From Bacillus sp. ISL-45 (GTDB lineage: Bacteria > Bacillota > Bacilli > Bacillales > Cytobacillaceae), in NCBI RefSeq assembly GCF_018613195.1, contig NZ_JAGGQQ010000019.1, forward strand, positions 1 through 64,000: DNA of 64,000 bases, given 5' to 3'. Position 1 is the first letter of the stretch. Each line of letters begins with the position of its first letter. The translations under genes and the position numbers were made by a program. Shown piece after piece: positions 56,380 to 62,688 of the stretch. The notes beneath the pieces were generated by a model, which was given only the letters and a program-made list of their open reading frames with translations, searched no databases and was not told the DNA's origin.

Positions 56380-56430
56380 TTGACCGTTTGTCGATTTTTA
56401 ACATATACTTATAATCAAACGAATATTTGA
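56380..56430 (+). promoter_or_regulatory. cadCA promoter and CadC operator
   Basis: TTGACC, 18 bases and TATACT form a promoter. Directly downstream, TCAAACGAATATTTGA (56415-56430) is a dyad very like the known cad operator of staphylococcal CadC (TCAAATAAATATTTGA type). This fits autorepression by the ArsR-family regulator, released by Cd, Zn or Pb. Confidence 0.7.
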
Positions 56431-56449
56431 ATAAAGGGTGGTGAATGAG

Positions 56450-56821
56450 TTGAAGCAAATCAAAGATATGTGTGAGATCACCTGTGTGGATGAGGGAAAA
56501 GTATCTCGAGTAAAAAATTCTCTTTCTCAGCAAAATACAATGGCTGTAGCTCAGATATTTAAAGCATTGGCCGATGATACAAGAATTAAAATTGCCTTCT
56601 CATTAAGTGAGGAAGATGAGCTTTGTGTCTGTGATGTTGCCAATATCGTCGGCTGCTCCACAGCAACTGCCTCGCACCATCTAAGGCTTTTGCGGAATTT
56701 AGGCCTGGCTAAATATCGCAAAGAGGGCAAGCTGGTGTTCTATTCACTCGACGATGAGCATGTAAAGCAATTGATCCAGGTTGCTTTTGCCCACCAGAAG
56801 GAGGTTCAATCACATGAGTAA
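56450..56821 (+). CDS. cadC: CadC-type ArsR-family metal-sensing repressor
   Basis: A 123-residue winged-helix repressor. It keeps the CadC cadmium/lead site cysteines: Cys8 and Cys12 near the N-terminus (MCEITC) and Cys59/Cys61 in ELCVCD, plus the C-terminal DDEH...H helix used for the zinc site. The DNA-recognition helix is ATASHHLRLL. TTG at 56450 follows GGGTGGTGAATGAG. Its stop overlaps the ATG of the ATPase gene, so the two are coupled. Confidence 0.92.
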   Translation: MKQIKDMCEITCVDEGKVSRVKNSLSQQNTMAVAQIFKALADDTRIKIAFSLSEEDELCVCDVANIVGCSTATASHHLRLLRNLGLAKYRKEGKLVFYSLDDEHVKQLIQVAFAHQKEVQSHE

Positions 56822-58946
56822 TGCTATGACAGAAAAAGATGTGCAAAAAAGTGTATACCGTGTCCAGGGTTTTACCTGAGCAGGCTGTGCCACAAAGTTC
56901 GAAACGAACGTAAAACACCTGGATGGTGTTTCTGATGCAAGTGTAAATTTCGGCGCCTCGAAGCTGACGGTATATGGAAATACAACGATAGAAGAGCTTG
57001 AAAAAGCTGGGGCTTTTGAAAATATAAAGGTCATTCCCGAGAAACAGCGATTCGAAGAAAAGAAAGAGCCTTTCTTACAAAAACATAGTCCGGTCATTGG
57101 ATCTCTGATCTTTCTGATTATAGGCTGGATGGCAGGAGAATTGAACGGAGAAGGCAGCGTTCCATCTGTTTTGGCTTACGCAGCCTCCATGCTGATTGGC
57201 GGGTCCCGCCTGTTTCTGACTGGATTGAAGAACCTTGGCCGGCTTGAGTTTGATATGAAAACACTGATGACCATTGCTGTGATTGGTGCTGCGGCCATTG
57301 GCGAATGGGGGGAAGGGGCCATGGTAGTCATCCTTTTTGCAATCAGTGAGGCGCTTGAAACGTATTCAATGGATAAAGCAAGACAGTCCATTCGGTCACT
57401 GATGAATATCGCTCCTAAAGAAGCATTGATCCGCAGAGGAAATCAAGAACAACTGGTGAAAGTGGATGATATTGAAATCGGAGATATCATGATCGTCAAG
57501 CCAGGGAAAAAAATTGCTATGGATGGAATGGTGGTAAAAGGAATTTCATCTGTCAATCAGGCGGCAATAACCGGTGAATCAATACCTGTAGCAAAAGAAA
57601 GCGAGGATGAAGTATTTGCCGGAACCTTGAATGAGGAAGGCGTCCTTGAAGTCAGAGTGACAAAGCGAGTGGATGATACAACTATTGCTAAAATCATTCA
57701 CCTTGTCGAGGAAGCGCAGGCAGAACGTGCTCCTTCCCAGGCATTTGTTGACCGGTTCGCAAAATATTATACTCCGTTAATTATGTTGATTGCATTAGGG
57801 GTTGCGATAGTTCCTCCTTTGTTATCAGGAGCAGATTGGAGCTCATGGATTTATCAAGGTCTGGCAGTATTGGTTGTTGGCTGCCCATGCGCCCTGATCA
57901 TTTCTACACCTGTTTCGATTGTGACTGCCATCGGAAATGCAGCGCGAAACGGGGTGCTGATCAAAGGTGGAATCCATCTGGAAGAAATGGGTGCAATCAA
58001 AGCAATCGCTTTTGATAAGACCGGCACTTTGACAAAAGGCGTTCCTGTTGTCACAGATTATCTGCCGCAAAAAGCCGAAGATTCTAATGAATTATTAAAG
58101 ATTATTGCTGCCCTAGAAAACAATTCCCAGCATCCATTGGCCTCCTCCATCATGAGGAAAGCCGAGGAAGAGAACCTATCCTACCAAGGTATGGCGGTAG
58201 AAGGATTTAACTCTATAACAGGCAAAGGCATTAAAGGAGAGGTCAATGGAACAGCCTATTATGTGGGCAGCCCTAATTTATTTGAAGAGCTGAACGGCAT
58301 TCCTTCCAGCATAAAAGAACAGATATCAAGTTTGCAAAACGAAGGCAAAACAGTAATGGTTGCCGGAACATCCCAATCTGTTCTGGCTTTAATTGCAGTG
58401 GCTGACAAAATGAGGGAGAACACTCATAAAGTGATCAAGAGTCTACATGATTTGGGCATTCAAAAGACCATCATGCTGACTGGAGATAACGAAGGTACAG
58501 CACGCGCGATTGGAAAAGAAGCCGGGGTTACGGATGTTAAAGCAGACCTGCTTCCTCAAGATAAATTGAGTTATATAAAAGAATTTAGAAGTCAGTATGA
58601 TCGGGTTGCAATGGTGGGGGATGGTGTGAATGATGCACCTGCACTTGCGGCTTCCACGGTTGGAGTTGCCATGGGAGGAGCCGGAACAGACACAGCGCTG
58701 GAAATTGCTGATATTGCCCTAATGGCAGATGACCTAGGCAAACTTCCTTTCACGGTGAAATTAAGCAGAAGAGCGTTAAATATCATTAAACAAAACATTA
58801 CCTTTTCATTAGGGATTAAACTGGTTGCTCTGTTGCTTGTCATTCCTGGCTGGCTAACGCTATGGATCGCGATTTTTGCCGATATGGGGGCGACTCTGAT
58901 TGTAACACTCAATGCATTGCGGCTTCTTGGAGTAAAAGATAAGTAA
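56814..58946 (+). CDS. cadA: CadA/ZntA-type P1B ATPase with selenocysteine in the HMA domain
   Basis: From the ATG at 56814 (overlapping cadC) the frame encodes 710 residues interrupted only by TGA at 56877-56879. That codon falls on the first cysteine of the heavy-metal-associated motif: GFT-U22-A-G-C25-A-T, where relatives have GxTCxxCA. The ATPase is otherwise complete: CPC transport motif (GCPCAL, about 357), DKTGTLTK phosphorylation site (about 402), the conserved HP (QHPLASS) and GDGVNDAP. It exports Cd2+, Zn2+ or Pb2+. If TGA were a stop, translation would restart only at 57129 and lose the HMA domain. Hairpin candidates for a SECIS lie at 56897 and 56913. Confidence 0.88.
56897..56931 (+). 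promoter_or_regulatory. Candidate SECIS hairpins of cadA
   Basis: Two stems follow the UGA. GTTC/GAAC with loop GAAAC begins 18 bases after it and has G first in the loop. AAACACC/GGTGTTT with loop TGGAT begins 34 bases after it. The first fits the usual bacterial spacing better; the second is the stronger stem. Confidence 0.5.
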
Positions 58947-58988: not shown

Positions 58989-59621
58989 ATGAACAACACA
59001 TGGAACCGGTTTATATATAAATGCGCGGCACCGTTTTATGACAGACTTTTCAATTCGGGGATATTTTTAAAAGCAAGAAAGCAAATATTTAAAGATATTG
59101 ACGTGAAATCTGGAAGTAAGATACTATTTGTAGGCGTTGGAACGGGGGCTGACTTGCCCTATTTATTGAATAATGGGCATGAAATAACGGCAATCGATTA
59201 TTCAGAGGATATGTTGAGAATGGCGCAAGAGACCTATCGGGACTCTTCGATTACATTTCTACGGATGGATGCCCAACATCTCGATTTTGAAAAAGAATCC
59301 TTTGATTTTGTCATTGGCAGCTTGATATTAAGCGTAGTCCCCGATCCTCAGCAAGCTTTCAGGGAAATCATTAGGGTATTAAAAAGCAATGGTAGATTTT
59401 TAATCTTCGATAAGTTCGTCCCTGCCAATAAAAAAGTCCCCGTTCGGCAACGGCTGCTTCGGCCTTTGGTAAAACTGTTCGGAACCGATATTGGACTGGA
59501 TTTTAATTTAATCCACGCCCCTGTTTCGGATGAATCAATAATCTTACAAGATGAGGAAGTAATGCTAAACGGACTATACCGGAGAATCACAGGAGTTAAG
59601 AGGAGAGAGAAAGGAATTTAA
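58989..59621 (+). CDS. Class I SAM-dependent methyltransferase
   Basis: A 210-residue methyltransferase of the UbiE/type-11 group. Motif I is LFVGVGTGADLPYL (about 39-52), the acidic loop is AIDYSEDML and motif IV is DFVIGSLILSVVPDP. The N-terminal FIYKCAAPFYDRLF helix resembles phospholipid or quinone methyltransferases. Substrate unknown. ATG follows TAGGAGGAGAATAT. It sits 42 bases after cadA, so a link to metal resistance is possible but unproved. Confidence 0.85.
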   Translation: MNNTWNRFIYKCAAPFYDRLFNSGIFLKARKQIFKDIDVKSGSKILFVGVGTGADLPYLLNNGHEITAIDYSEDMLRMAQETYRDSSITFLRMDAQHLDFEKESFDFVIGSLILSVVPDPQQAFREIIRVLKSNGRFLIFDKFVPANKKVPVRQRLLRPLVKLFGTDIGLDFNLIHAPVSDESIILQDEEVMLNGLYRRITGVKRREKGI

Positions 59622-59722: not shown

Positions 59723-60265
59723 ATGTCAAAAACCTTTTTTTTACTCGTTCTTTTGTTAACAATACCTTTTTCCGCATATGCACATTCTGAACTCAAATCT
59801 TCGATGCCGGAGGCGAACCAGATTCTGACCGAAGATCTACATGAAGTGAGTCTGACCTTTGCAGGGAAAATTGAATCATTAAGCACGATGACGTTAACTA
59901 AGGATAACAGGGAGCAATCTTTCAAGAATATTAGTATACAAGGCAATCAAATGAAAGGGTTCTTGGAAACACCTCTTGAATCAGGAACTTATATCATTAA
60001 TTGGGAAATTGCTGGGGAGGATGGCCATCCAATCACTGGTAAAATTCCTTTCACTGTCCAAAAGAAACAGGGGGCGGCGGTTGACTCAGATATTGAGAAA
60101 CCAGGCGGAGGACAGGAAATAGATACAGAGAAAGTGAAAGAGGGTATAGAACATCCTTTAACTAAGCCTAACTTGCCAATGACATCCGCTGGATACATTA
60201 TCCCGATTGTCGCACTTGGGTTGTTGGGACTAGGGCTGTTCTTCCTGTTTGGAAGGAATAGATAA
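59723..60265 (+). CDS. copC: CopC-domain copper resistance protein
   Basis: A 180-residue exported protein: signal peptide ending SAYA, then a CopC beta-sandwich beginning with the copper-binding HSELKSSMPEANQ and containing the EDGHPITGKIPFTV signature, a charged linker (GGGQEIDTEKVKEG) and a C-terminal membrane helix. It binds copper outside the membrane and hands it to CopD. ATG follows AGGAGCACCTA. copD starts directly after it. Confidence 0.9.
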   Translation: MSKTFFLLVLLLTIPFSAYAHSELKSSMPEANQILTEDLHEVSLTFAGKIESLSTMTLTKDNREQSFKNISIQGNQMKGFLETPLESGTYIINWEIAGEDGHPITGKIPFTVQKKQGAAVDSDIEKPGGGQEIDTEKVKEGIEHPLTKPNLPMTSAGYIIPIVALGLLGLGLFFLFGRNR

Positions 60266-60266
60266 A

Positions 60267-61343
60267 ATGATTGCTTTGACCCCGCTCTCAGAATTAGGCT
60301 CTTATCTTGTCTTTTCTATTTTAGCTGGACATGTGGCTTTGCAATTTGTGCCATTATCAAAGAAGCCGGCAATTCATATACCTAAAAAAGTTTTACTGCT
60401 ATCCTGTTTAGGCATTTATTTATTTACTTTTGGACCAGTCGCCCAAGTGATATCCTATTTCAGCGGCAGTGTTGGGTTTACACTCGCAGTATATTCTGTT
60501 TTGACGGATTTTGAAGTGGGAAAGGCATGGCTGTTTATTGGATTGATGTCTGTTCTTTTATGGTTTTCCCTTTTATTTAATGCATCTAAATATATACAGG
60601 CAGCCATACTGCTGTTAATGATTCTGGCGGTTGGATACGCAAGCCATGTCGCTTCGCTTTCGGGTTGGGCAGGCTTCTCATCCCATTCCATCCACTTTCT
60701 GGCGGTTACTCTCTGGATAGGGATATTATTTCATGTTGCCTGGTTTGCCAAAGATCAATCCAATTGGTCAAGTTTCTTAAGCTGGTTTACTCCTTTTGCA
60801 ATCACTAGCTTTTTGATTATCTTAATAAGCGGCCTGACTCTTATGTCCTATGTAGTTAAGCCCGAAGACTATGTCAGTTCCTGGGCTGTGCCGTATGGCC
60901 ACACCTTGCTATTAAAACATATAAGCATTATTCCGATCTTATTTTTCGCATTTTTGAACGGCCTGCTGGCGAGAAAATCCAGATTCAGTGATTACTTTGA
61001 TCCGAGTCCCTGGCTGAAAATTGAAAGTATTATGATCTTGATGGCGTTCTATTTTACTTCCATATTGGGAACATTGTCTCCGCCACATGAGGTGGACTTT
61101 ACAATCAAGACAGAGGGTGCATTTCCTTGGGTTGAGTGGATCCTGGGGATTAATATACTTTCAACACAGACACTTGAATTTATCCCAATGCTGCCATCCA
61201 TACTGCTATTCATTATTTCAATCTTGTTTTTAACCCTTATTTTCATTAGTTTCAAAAAGGTAAAACCATTGGTTGCCCTTTTCTTTGGACTAAGTTTTAT
61301 TTTTGCCATGTATTTTGGCTTATTGCTGTCTCTATCTTTTTGA
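60267..61343 (+). CDS. copD: CopD-family copper import membrane protein
   Basis: A 358-residue polytopic protein of the CopD family (about nine helices) with the conserved histidine/tryptophan region SHSIHFLAVTLWIGILFHVAWF in the middle and GTLSPPHEVDF later. CopD is thought to move copper inward with CopC. ATG at 60267 follows TGGAAGGAATAGATAAA, one base after the copC stop, so translation is coupled. It ends at a strong terminator. Confidence 0.88.
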   Translation: MIALTPLSELGSYLVFSILAGHVALQFVPLSKKPAIHIPKKVLLLSCLGIYLFTFGPVAQVISYFSGSVGFTLAVYSVLTDFEVGKAWLFIGLMSVLLWFSLLFNASKYIQAAILLLMILAVGYASHVASLSGWAGFSSHSIHFLAVTLWIGILFHVAWFAKDQSNWSSFLSWFTPFAITSFLIILISGLTLMSYVVKPEDYVSSWAVPYGHTLLLKHISIIPILFFAFLNGLLARKSRFSDYFDPSPWLKIESIMILMAFYFTSILGTLSPPHEVDFTIKTEGAFPWVEWILGINILSTQTLEFIPMLPSILLFIISILFLTLIFISFKKVKPLVALFFGLSFIFAMYFGLLLSLSF

Positions 61344-61604: not shown

Positions 61605-61895
61605 ATGTCACTCCCTTATTTAAAAGAAGCTATAAAGAATGGCGATAATGAAAAGTTGATTCGTTATGTAAGGCTGCACTTTGGTGATGGAAATGAAGAT
61701 GCTGGGCGGAAAGAGATTGATAAGTCTTGGATTGAGGCCCTTAAACTATTGCTGGAATCACCCGAGACAGACCGGGAATTTATTTATGATACACTTGAAA
61801 ATAAAGATGCTGAAACTTTAGCGCATTTATATTTTAGTCTGCATTTTTATCTGCTAAAAAGATCGGGGGAATGGATACATGACGGAAACCTCTAA
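61605..61895 (+). CDS. Small partner protein of the selenoprotein gene
   Basis: A 96-residue acidic, helical protein (begins MSLPYLKEAIKNGDNEKLIR, ends KRSGEWIHDGNL). I do not recognise a family. ATG at 61605 follows AAAGGAGTATACCA. The next gene, a GrdB/PrdB-like selenoprotein, starts 17 bases before this stop, so the two are translationally coupled and the proteins probably work together. Confidence 0.68.
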   Translation: MSLPYLKEAIKNGDNEKLIRYVRLHFGDGNEDAGRKEIDKSWIEALKLLLESPETDREFIYDTLENKDAETLAHLYFSLHFYLLKRSGEWIHDGNL

Positions 61896-62688
61896 AAAAG
61901 GGCAACTGCGTCCCGGCGTGTGGAATACAGTTAACGAGCGTTATCCTGGATCGATGATAACAAAAGATGATTTTGTCCCGTTAGCCTTTTTGGATAAGCC
62001 ATTATCAGAATCTAAATTAACATTCGTAAGTTCAGCTGGTGTACAGCCCGTGGGCACAATGCCTTTTGACACTGTTCATCCTATAGGAGATTATACATAT
62101 CGAAAGGTTCCAACCCATTTAAAACCTGACCAGCTGGAAATTCATCAATTAAAGTACCCCACAATAGGTGCAAATCAGGATATAAATGTGATTTTTCCCA
62201 TTGAACGGTTACAGGAATTAGCTGAAGAAGGAGTCATAGGAGGACTCACGGAAAACTTTTTTTCTTTTATTGGATATAATATGGACCCTGAACAACTTGA
62301 ACGAAAATTAGCGGAAGATATCGCTGAAGCGGTAGTGAAAGATAATGCGGATATAGCTTTATTAAGCCCTGCGTGACCGATTTGACATCAATCTGTCGCG
62401 CTCGTGCAGCGCGCTTTAGAACGAAGGGGAATTCCAACTGTTTCACTATCTGTAGCCCTGGATATAACAGAGCATGCTAAGCCCCCAAGAGCAGTGTTTT
62501 TACCTTTCATGATGGGACACCATTTTGGAGTGCCATATCACAAAGAACTTCAGCGAAAAATTATTATTGAGTCTCTAGAACATTTAGTGCAGGCAAAGAA
62601 AAGTGGAGAGATTAAATTTCCTCCTTTTACCTGGGCAGAAGCAAGAAAAGAAGGTATTAAAATTAAGAAATCAATGGGATTAAAATAA
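61879..62688 (+). CDS. GrdB/PrdB-family selenoprotein with two in-frame UGA codons
   Basis: The frame from 61879 runs 269 codons with TGA at 62374-62376 and 62383-62385. These sit in LLSPA-U166-P-I-U169-HQSV, where cysteine homologues of the glycine/sarcosine/betaine/proline reductase B family have a CPxC-type motif. Both sides match the family: FVSSAGVQPVGTMPFDTVHP before, and ALVQRALERRGIPTVSLSVA then FLPFMMGHHFGVPYHKELQ after. Read as stops, the gene would be cut in two exactly at the redox motif. A GC-rich hairpin at 62397-62413 can serve both UGAs. The role in an aerobic Bacillaceae is unknown; no GrdA, GrdC or PrdA is nearby. Confidence 0.9.
62397..62413 (+). promoter_or_regulatory. Candidate SECIS hairpin of the GrdB/PrdB-like gene
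   Basis: CGCGCT, loop CGTGC, AGCGCG form a strong six-base-pair stem. The loop starts 27 bases after the first UGA and 18 after the second, and has G in second position, all within bacterial SECIS rules. Confidence 0.7.

Follow-up and report, generated by a model that had tools for sequence, protein, structure and literature searches.

A predicted selenocysteine-containing CadA/ZntA-type heavy-metal ATPase in Bacillus sp. ISL-45 and its relatives

The cadC-cadA locus

The window analysed here is the whole 64-kb stretch of Bacillus sp. ISL-45 DNA, and the locus of interest within it contains a cadC-like regulatory gene and a gene predicted to encode a heavy-metal P-type ATPase with selenocysteine (Sec). 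The features of the locus are listed in Table 1. The reading frame of the ATPase extends from ATG 56814 to TAA 58944-58946 and is interrupted solely by TGA 56877-56879. Its ATG lies in the last 8 bases of cadC, whose ORF ends at 56821. An earlier note on this DNA had placed the TGA at the first Cys of the HMA motif, in an otherwise open frame whose ATG overlaps cadC, and the sequence confirms this description. When the TGA is read as Sec, the HMA motif becomes GFT-U-A-G-C (residues 19-25), giving a UxxC motif, and the Pfam domains found in the protein are HMA (residues 14-64), E1-E2_ATPase, and Hydrolase. ORF calling with translation table 11 halts at the TGA, and the pump core is retained in a 605-residue ORF that starts from the in-frame ATG 57129.

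Table 1. Features of the cadC-cadA locus in window coordinates.
Feature	Position	Strand	Remarks
Palindrome TCAAACGAATATTTGA 5' of cadC	56415..56430	.	pattern TCAAA-N6-TTTGA
cadC-like ArsR-family regulator	56438..56821	+	HTH_5 52.3 bits; start codon uncertain
Ribosome-binding site GGAGG	56800..56804	+	9 nt 5' of the ATG; by eye
CadA/ZntA-type heavy-metal P-type ATPase selenoprotein (predicted)	56814..58946	+	710 residues; assigned from profile scores
TGA read as selenocysteine	56877..56879	+	residue 22, first ligand position of the HMA motif
SECIS hairpin 1 (predicted)	56897..56909	+	GUUC/GAAC stem with one additional pair in the window
SECIS hairpin 2 (predicted)	56913..56931	+	AAACACC-UGGAU-GGUGUUU; probable SelB-binding hairpin; loop begins 40 nt past the UGA
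Class I methyltransferase, directly 3' of the ATPase	58989..59621	+	

The ATPase passes the cut-offs of TIGR01525 (heavy-metal P-type ATPase core; 613.6 bits versus 346.25) and TIGR01512 (Cd family; 530.1 bits versus 313.5), and these scores together with the adjoining ArsR-family regulator support its predicted identity as a metal pump. The cut-off of TIGR01511 (Cu family) is also barely passed (406 bits versus 397), which counts against regarding the metal as settled; Cd, Zn, or Pb is most likely. The ZntA models NF033775 and NF008262 are not reached by the ATPase (571.4 versus 1240 bits and 650.5 versus 1005 bits, respectively).

The ArsR-family neighbor contains ELCVCD and a Cys pair at its N-terminus, which we take to be marks of CadC, and the palindrome upstream of it is presumably the CadC operator. 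The gene context was compared in named loci (the best 80 of 566 relatives); 55 of these include a TGA copy, and the other 25 have Cys copies only. In this set, 65 of the 80 loci have the TCAAA-N6-TTTGA pattern no more than 700 nt upstream of the HMA codon, and a tblastn match to the cadC-like gene is present at 49/55 Sec and 22/25 Cys loci. Apart from cadC, the gene neighbors vary. The methyltransferase is at most an occasional partner, because a relative of it lies close to only 7/55 Sec and 1/25 Cys loci. CopC-like and CopD-like genes are found 3' of the methyltransferase (window 59723-61343), and their relatives are near 8 to 9 of the 55 Sec loci and 4 of the 25 Cys loci.

Distribution of TGA and Cys copies

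The survey of relatives covers the family to which the window belongs. A match at threshold was found in 181 of the 193 family genomes, and 120 of the 150 matches listed hold TGA, in at least 106 of the 193 genomes. The 120 are matches with TGA anywhere inside them, the exact codon being confirmed in the fetched loci, and three of them have a further stop (two TGAs each in G124:C1 and G008, TGA and TAA in G041). Within the genus there are 28 matches in 21 genomes; 26 have TGA inside the match and one (L044) has TGT in its place. The match in L043 (genome G001) begins only at residue 137 with a TGA-bearing HMA domain upstream, and the frame of this copy seems to be broken between the two parts.

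The HMA domains were then counted in loci L023-L158, and 108 of the 136 have TGA at exactly the first-ligand codon while 28 have TGC or TGT. The 108 include the window's own copy, and both counts contain species repeats from named and unnamed sources; 91 of the TGA copies and 20 of the Cys copies are distinct over 230 nt. An alignment with homologues had been proposed in the earlier note, and it is in these 108 loci that TGA is found at the same codon. The counts derive from 155 motif hits (108 TGA, 24 TGC, and 23 TGT), from which 19 Cys hits belonging to outer HMA domains or CopA domains were excluded because of how far they lie from the DKTGT motif. Since the motif search demanded Cys as the second ligand, a TGA at that position would have escaped detection. 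TGA copies are present in records named Neobacillus, Cytobacillus, Mesobacillus, Peribacillus, Robertmurraya, Rossellomorea, Litchfieldia, and Fictibacillus. In L084 and L058, TGA-type and TGT-type cadA genes adjoin one another, approximately 2.7 kb apart.

The SECIS element

Codon usage downstream of the TGA is constrained in the TGA copies. Among the 91 distinct TGA copies, the mean probability that a residue shared by two sequences is encoded by the same codon in both is 0.90 for codons +6 to +17 versus 0.46 for codons +18 to +199, and the corresponding values among the 20 distinct Cys copies are 0.50 and 0.56; pairwise counts for codons 81-680, which were spoiled by unequal lengths, are excluded from this comparison. 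The leucine at +14 is encoded by CTG in 91/91 TGA copies and in 3/20 Cys copies.

The consensus fold of this region (RNAalifold, 79 distinct TGA sequences) consists of two tandem hairpins 3' of the UGA. The loop of hairpin 1 is 21 nt from the UGA and starts with G followed by A. All four pairs of hairpin 1 are formed in 79/79 sequences, with changes from G-C to A-U (2) and from C-G to U-A (3), and an extra outer pair is formed in 18/79 only. In hairpin 2 the five inner pairs are formed in 79/79 sequences, with changes from A-U to G-C (2), and the outer two pairs in 76/79 and 74/79, the outermost changing from A-U to C-G (10) or G-C (1). The hairpin 2 loop is UG[G/U]A[U/G] in all 79 sequences. 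The mean folding energy of the 40-nt element is -13.0 kcal/mol in the TGA copies versus -3.8 kcal/mol in the Cys copies. On comparative grounds, the codon freezing specific to TGA copies at +6 to +17 and the two hairpins with compensatory changes identify the region as a predicted SECIS element.

The published model of the bacterial SECIS has an apical loop of 3-9 nt with G in the first two positions, a stem of 4-16 bp, a distance of 16-37 nt from the UGA to the apical loop, and a minimum free energy of -7.5 kcal/mol or lower. The loop and stem of hairpin 2 (7 bp in the window) fit this model, whereas the spacing of 40 nt is beyond its range. The mean energy of hairpin 2 alone is -8.5 kcal/mol (range -11.2 to -6.6 in the 79 sequences), compared with the -7.5 kcal/mol or lower that the model asks for. 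Hairpin 1 lies between the UGA and hairpin 2 and may shorten the path to the latter. The window sequence folded alone is unremarkable (z -1.18 and -0.83), the element being clear only from the alignment, and no Rfam family matches the 64-kb window at gathering thresholds. A long pairing across the UGA that appeared in the single-sequence fold was dropped, and the alignment consensus was computed from the UGA onward only.

Two other selenoproteins were used for comparison. The SelD element in the genus also has two tandem hairpins in its consensus (17 distinct sequences; L019 and L167-L186), with matching CAA/TTG and CAG/CTG forms. The SelD motif was recovered in 21 of 23 SelD loci, the two others being extra copies in G008 (L187 and L188). 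For FdhA the best fold is a single hairpin with the loop GGUCU in 7 of 8 sites, the set being limited to 8 sites with the NNID-CNRT-U-HAPS context, since a wider motif search mixed in chance matches. It is possible that CadA and the SelD of the genus, and not FdhA, share a distinct Bacillaceae class of two-hairpin SECIS in which hairpin 1 folds away part of the spacer and thereby lets the more distant hairpin 2 reach SelB, and that Sec is kept in CadA for better selenolate binding of Cd, Pb, or Hg, but we hold this combined proposal tentatively and consider the odds to be against it.

Selenocysteine machinery of the host

The host genome (4.6 Mb in 27 contigs) contains all four of the selA, selB, selC, and selD genes for which the earlier note had suggested a search. 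The tRNA-Sec gene selC has the anticodon TCA and scores 58.3 bits, and selB (365.6 bits), selA (560.4 bits), and selD (394.9 bits) are, like selC, above their cut-offs. The selD gene itself has one in-frame TGA, and the genome further contains two formate dehydrogenase genes with TGA and, at C24:422951-425062, a second CadA that likewise has a TGA. Elsewhere in the window, 61879-62688 encodes another candidate selenoprotein, whose frame includes two TGAs (62374-62376 and 62383-62385; motif SPA-U-PI-U-HQS). Its product is related to the GrdB/PrdB reductase subunits (PF07355, 39.1 bits with a cut-off of 22) and scores 138.2 bits with the PrdB model TIGR04483, under the cut-off of 300.

The occurrence of TGA follows that of selA. 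Among the 150 matches listed, TGA is present in 118/130 with selA versus 2/20 without selA (Fisher p 1.7e-13), and by genome in 104/107 with selA versus 2/11 without (Fisher p 1.3e-9); these values treat kindred rows as independent and are not true probabilities. Twenty-one family genomes are without selA, and one of them, taken to be G192, has no row among the 150 matches listed.

We regard the ATPase as a selenoprotein because selABCD are present in the genome, TGA is found in 108/136 counted HMA domains, a predicted SECIS lies 3' of the UGA, and TGA tracks selA. By this comparison it is nearly certain that the UGA is decoded as Sec at residue 22, and the earlier note's proposal to that effect is thereby upheld. 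One objection would be that the TGA genuinely terminates translation, or that it arose through a sequencing error or a recent nonsense mutation, which would leave a pseudogene or a pump that lacks the HMA domain. Termination under table 11 at 56877-56879 and the absence of an evident SECIS in the window sequence alone are what such a reading could draw on. It is hardly credible given that TGA recurs in 91 distinct related sequences with synonymous freezing and two-sided hairpin changes, that the HMA domain is preserved on either side of the TGA, and that the host has the full sel set. In addition, two copies on Cytobacillus plasmids have RefSeq coding sequences that span the TGA.

Copies in hosts without the Sec system and Sec-to-Cys replacement

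The two exceptions without selA are G169 (L164) and G171 (L163), which have a TGA-type cadA but no selA and no selB above cut-off; the element is still well folded in both copies. These copies count against the best explanation as given below. By eye, the G169 copy has a transposase-like ORF as well as other metal genes in its vicinity, and it scores equal to copies from three other genera. Both observations point to interhost transfer, and transfer of TGA-type cadA between hosts is likely as judged from such comparisons. A double-HMA Cys copy is also present in G171, approximately 6 kb upstream of L163.

When the ATPase core is placed on a tree with the HMA domain left out, a quick tree with several long branches, seven changes between Sec and Cys are required, and some Cys rows are nested in Sec clades. 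Of the 20 distinct Cys copies, the majority are without a SECIS-like fold. Among the nested rows, L066 carries TGT while its element is intact (-12.1 kcal/mol), L117 retains hairpin 1 with hairpin 2 gone, L106 has only a weaker hairpin 1 left, and L105 has neither hairpin. The simplest reading of this series would be repeated replacement of Sec by Cys followed by decay of the SECIS.

These data also bear on whether the UGA could serve as a selenium-dependent switch, in which Sec gives the full pump and termination with downstream re-initiation gives a pump without the HMA domain, the choice between them being the function. The ATG at 57129 with its pump-core ORF and the persistence of TGA copies in the two genomes above would be in keeping with a switch. 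We consider it very unlikely, as the seven Sec/Cys changes on the tree suggest that it is the residue itself that is retained.

Comparison with known systems

The window ATPase is a member of a family that has already been predicted, the UxxC ATPase selenoproteins. A UxxC cation-transporting ATPase is listed in published selenoprotein tables (PMC13188914), and three other papers list a COG2217 (ZntA) selenoprotein with UxxC (PMC9312934), 32 UxxC ATPase selenoproteins in 25 organisms (PMC5029168), and one UxxC ATPase selenoprotein in ocean metagenomes (PMC2398784). The suggestion in the earlier note that such a protein is rare or undescribed is not sustained, given these sources and the number of family genomes with TGA. 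The window protein shares with the published family a P1B-type heavy-metal ATPase, a single Sec in UxxC, and a Sec-equipped host; the likeness is one of description, and a Sec at the same HMA position or a common origin with the Bacillaceae form would be conjecture. In the texts examined we did not find the spread through Bacillaceae, a two-hairpin element with 40-nt spacing, decaying Cys reversions, or TGA copies whose hosts lack selA and selB. ATPase, P-type, and heavy metal were looked for in PMC12013277 and no passage was found. In the literature searched, which leaves most subscription papers outside, we found no experimental study of a metal ATPase that contains Sec, and the phrase for a SECIS with two hairpins was not found among the papers retrieved.

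The Cys-type CadA proteins (CadA/ZntA, exporters of Zn, Cd, and Pb), of which 28 relatives were read, share the core, the HMA domain, and the adjoining cadC-like gene with the window ATPase and differ in having TGC or TGT in place of TGA. The UxxU metal-binding (seleno)protein NF041115 and the MerT/CopZ fusion-like selenoprotein NF045683 share an HMA-like domain with Sec but differ in architecture. The window protein does not reach the cut-off of NF041115 (26.3 versus 95 bits), and its first 100 residues do not reach that of NF045683 (11.9 versus 375 bits).

Proposed mechanism

We place the probability of the best explanation as a whole, that the gene product is a CadA/ZntA-type P1B ATPase selenoprotein in which Sec22 takes part in metal binding, at about 0.78. 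By analogy with its family, the CadC-like repressor would be freed upon metal binding. The two-hairpin SECIS just 3' of the UGA would then recruit SelB with Sec-tRNA, and Sec would be inserted at residue 22, producing an HMA domain in which a selenol-thiol pair, Sec22 and Cys25, replaces the two thiols. The metal bound by this pair would be soft and divalent, with Cd, Zn, or Pb the likeliest candidates, and it would be passed to the CPC transport site or the pair would regulate that site. In the earlier note such a site was proposed to alter the affinity for Cd, Hg, or Pb and to make metal export depend on selenium; both effects are hypothetical. In a cell without the Sec system or without enough selenium, most ribosomes would be expected to stop after 21 residues.

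Alternatively, the inserted Sec might serve redox chemistry and not metal binding, in that a selenylsulfide between Sec22 and Cys25 would switch the HMA domain, or protect it, during oxidative or metal stress. In pumps of this type the HMA domain is generally regarded as regulatory and not essential, which would suit a role of this kind. Among selenoproteins, UxxC is a common redox motif (PMC13188914, section 7). We nevertheless consider redox use unlikely, since Sec occupies a metal-ligand position in the HMA domain of a metal pump with a metal-type regulator alongside, and since related HMA selenoproteins are tied to metals by name.

Implications

In the metal-binding explanation that we prefer, Sec would be a putative metal ligand in a transporter, as opposed to a residue of a catalytic site. 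Named Bacillaceae strains offer many natural pairs of Sec and Cys forms, in some of which the SECIS is half decayed, so the benefit of Sec to a metal-binding site is directly testable. Mechanical ORF calling shortens the Sec-type metal-resistance gene. If the two-hairpin and selenolate reading is true, this would be a mobile metal-resistance gene that works fully only in hosts with a Sec system. A Sec-type cadA may fail once it is transferred to a host without one.
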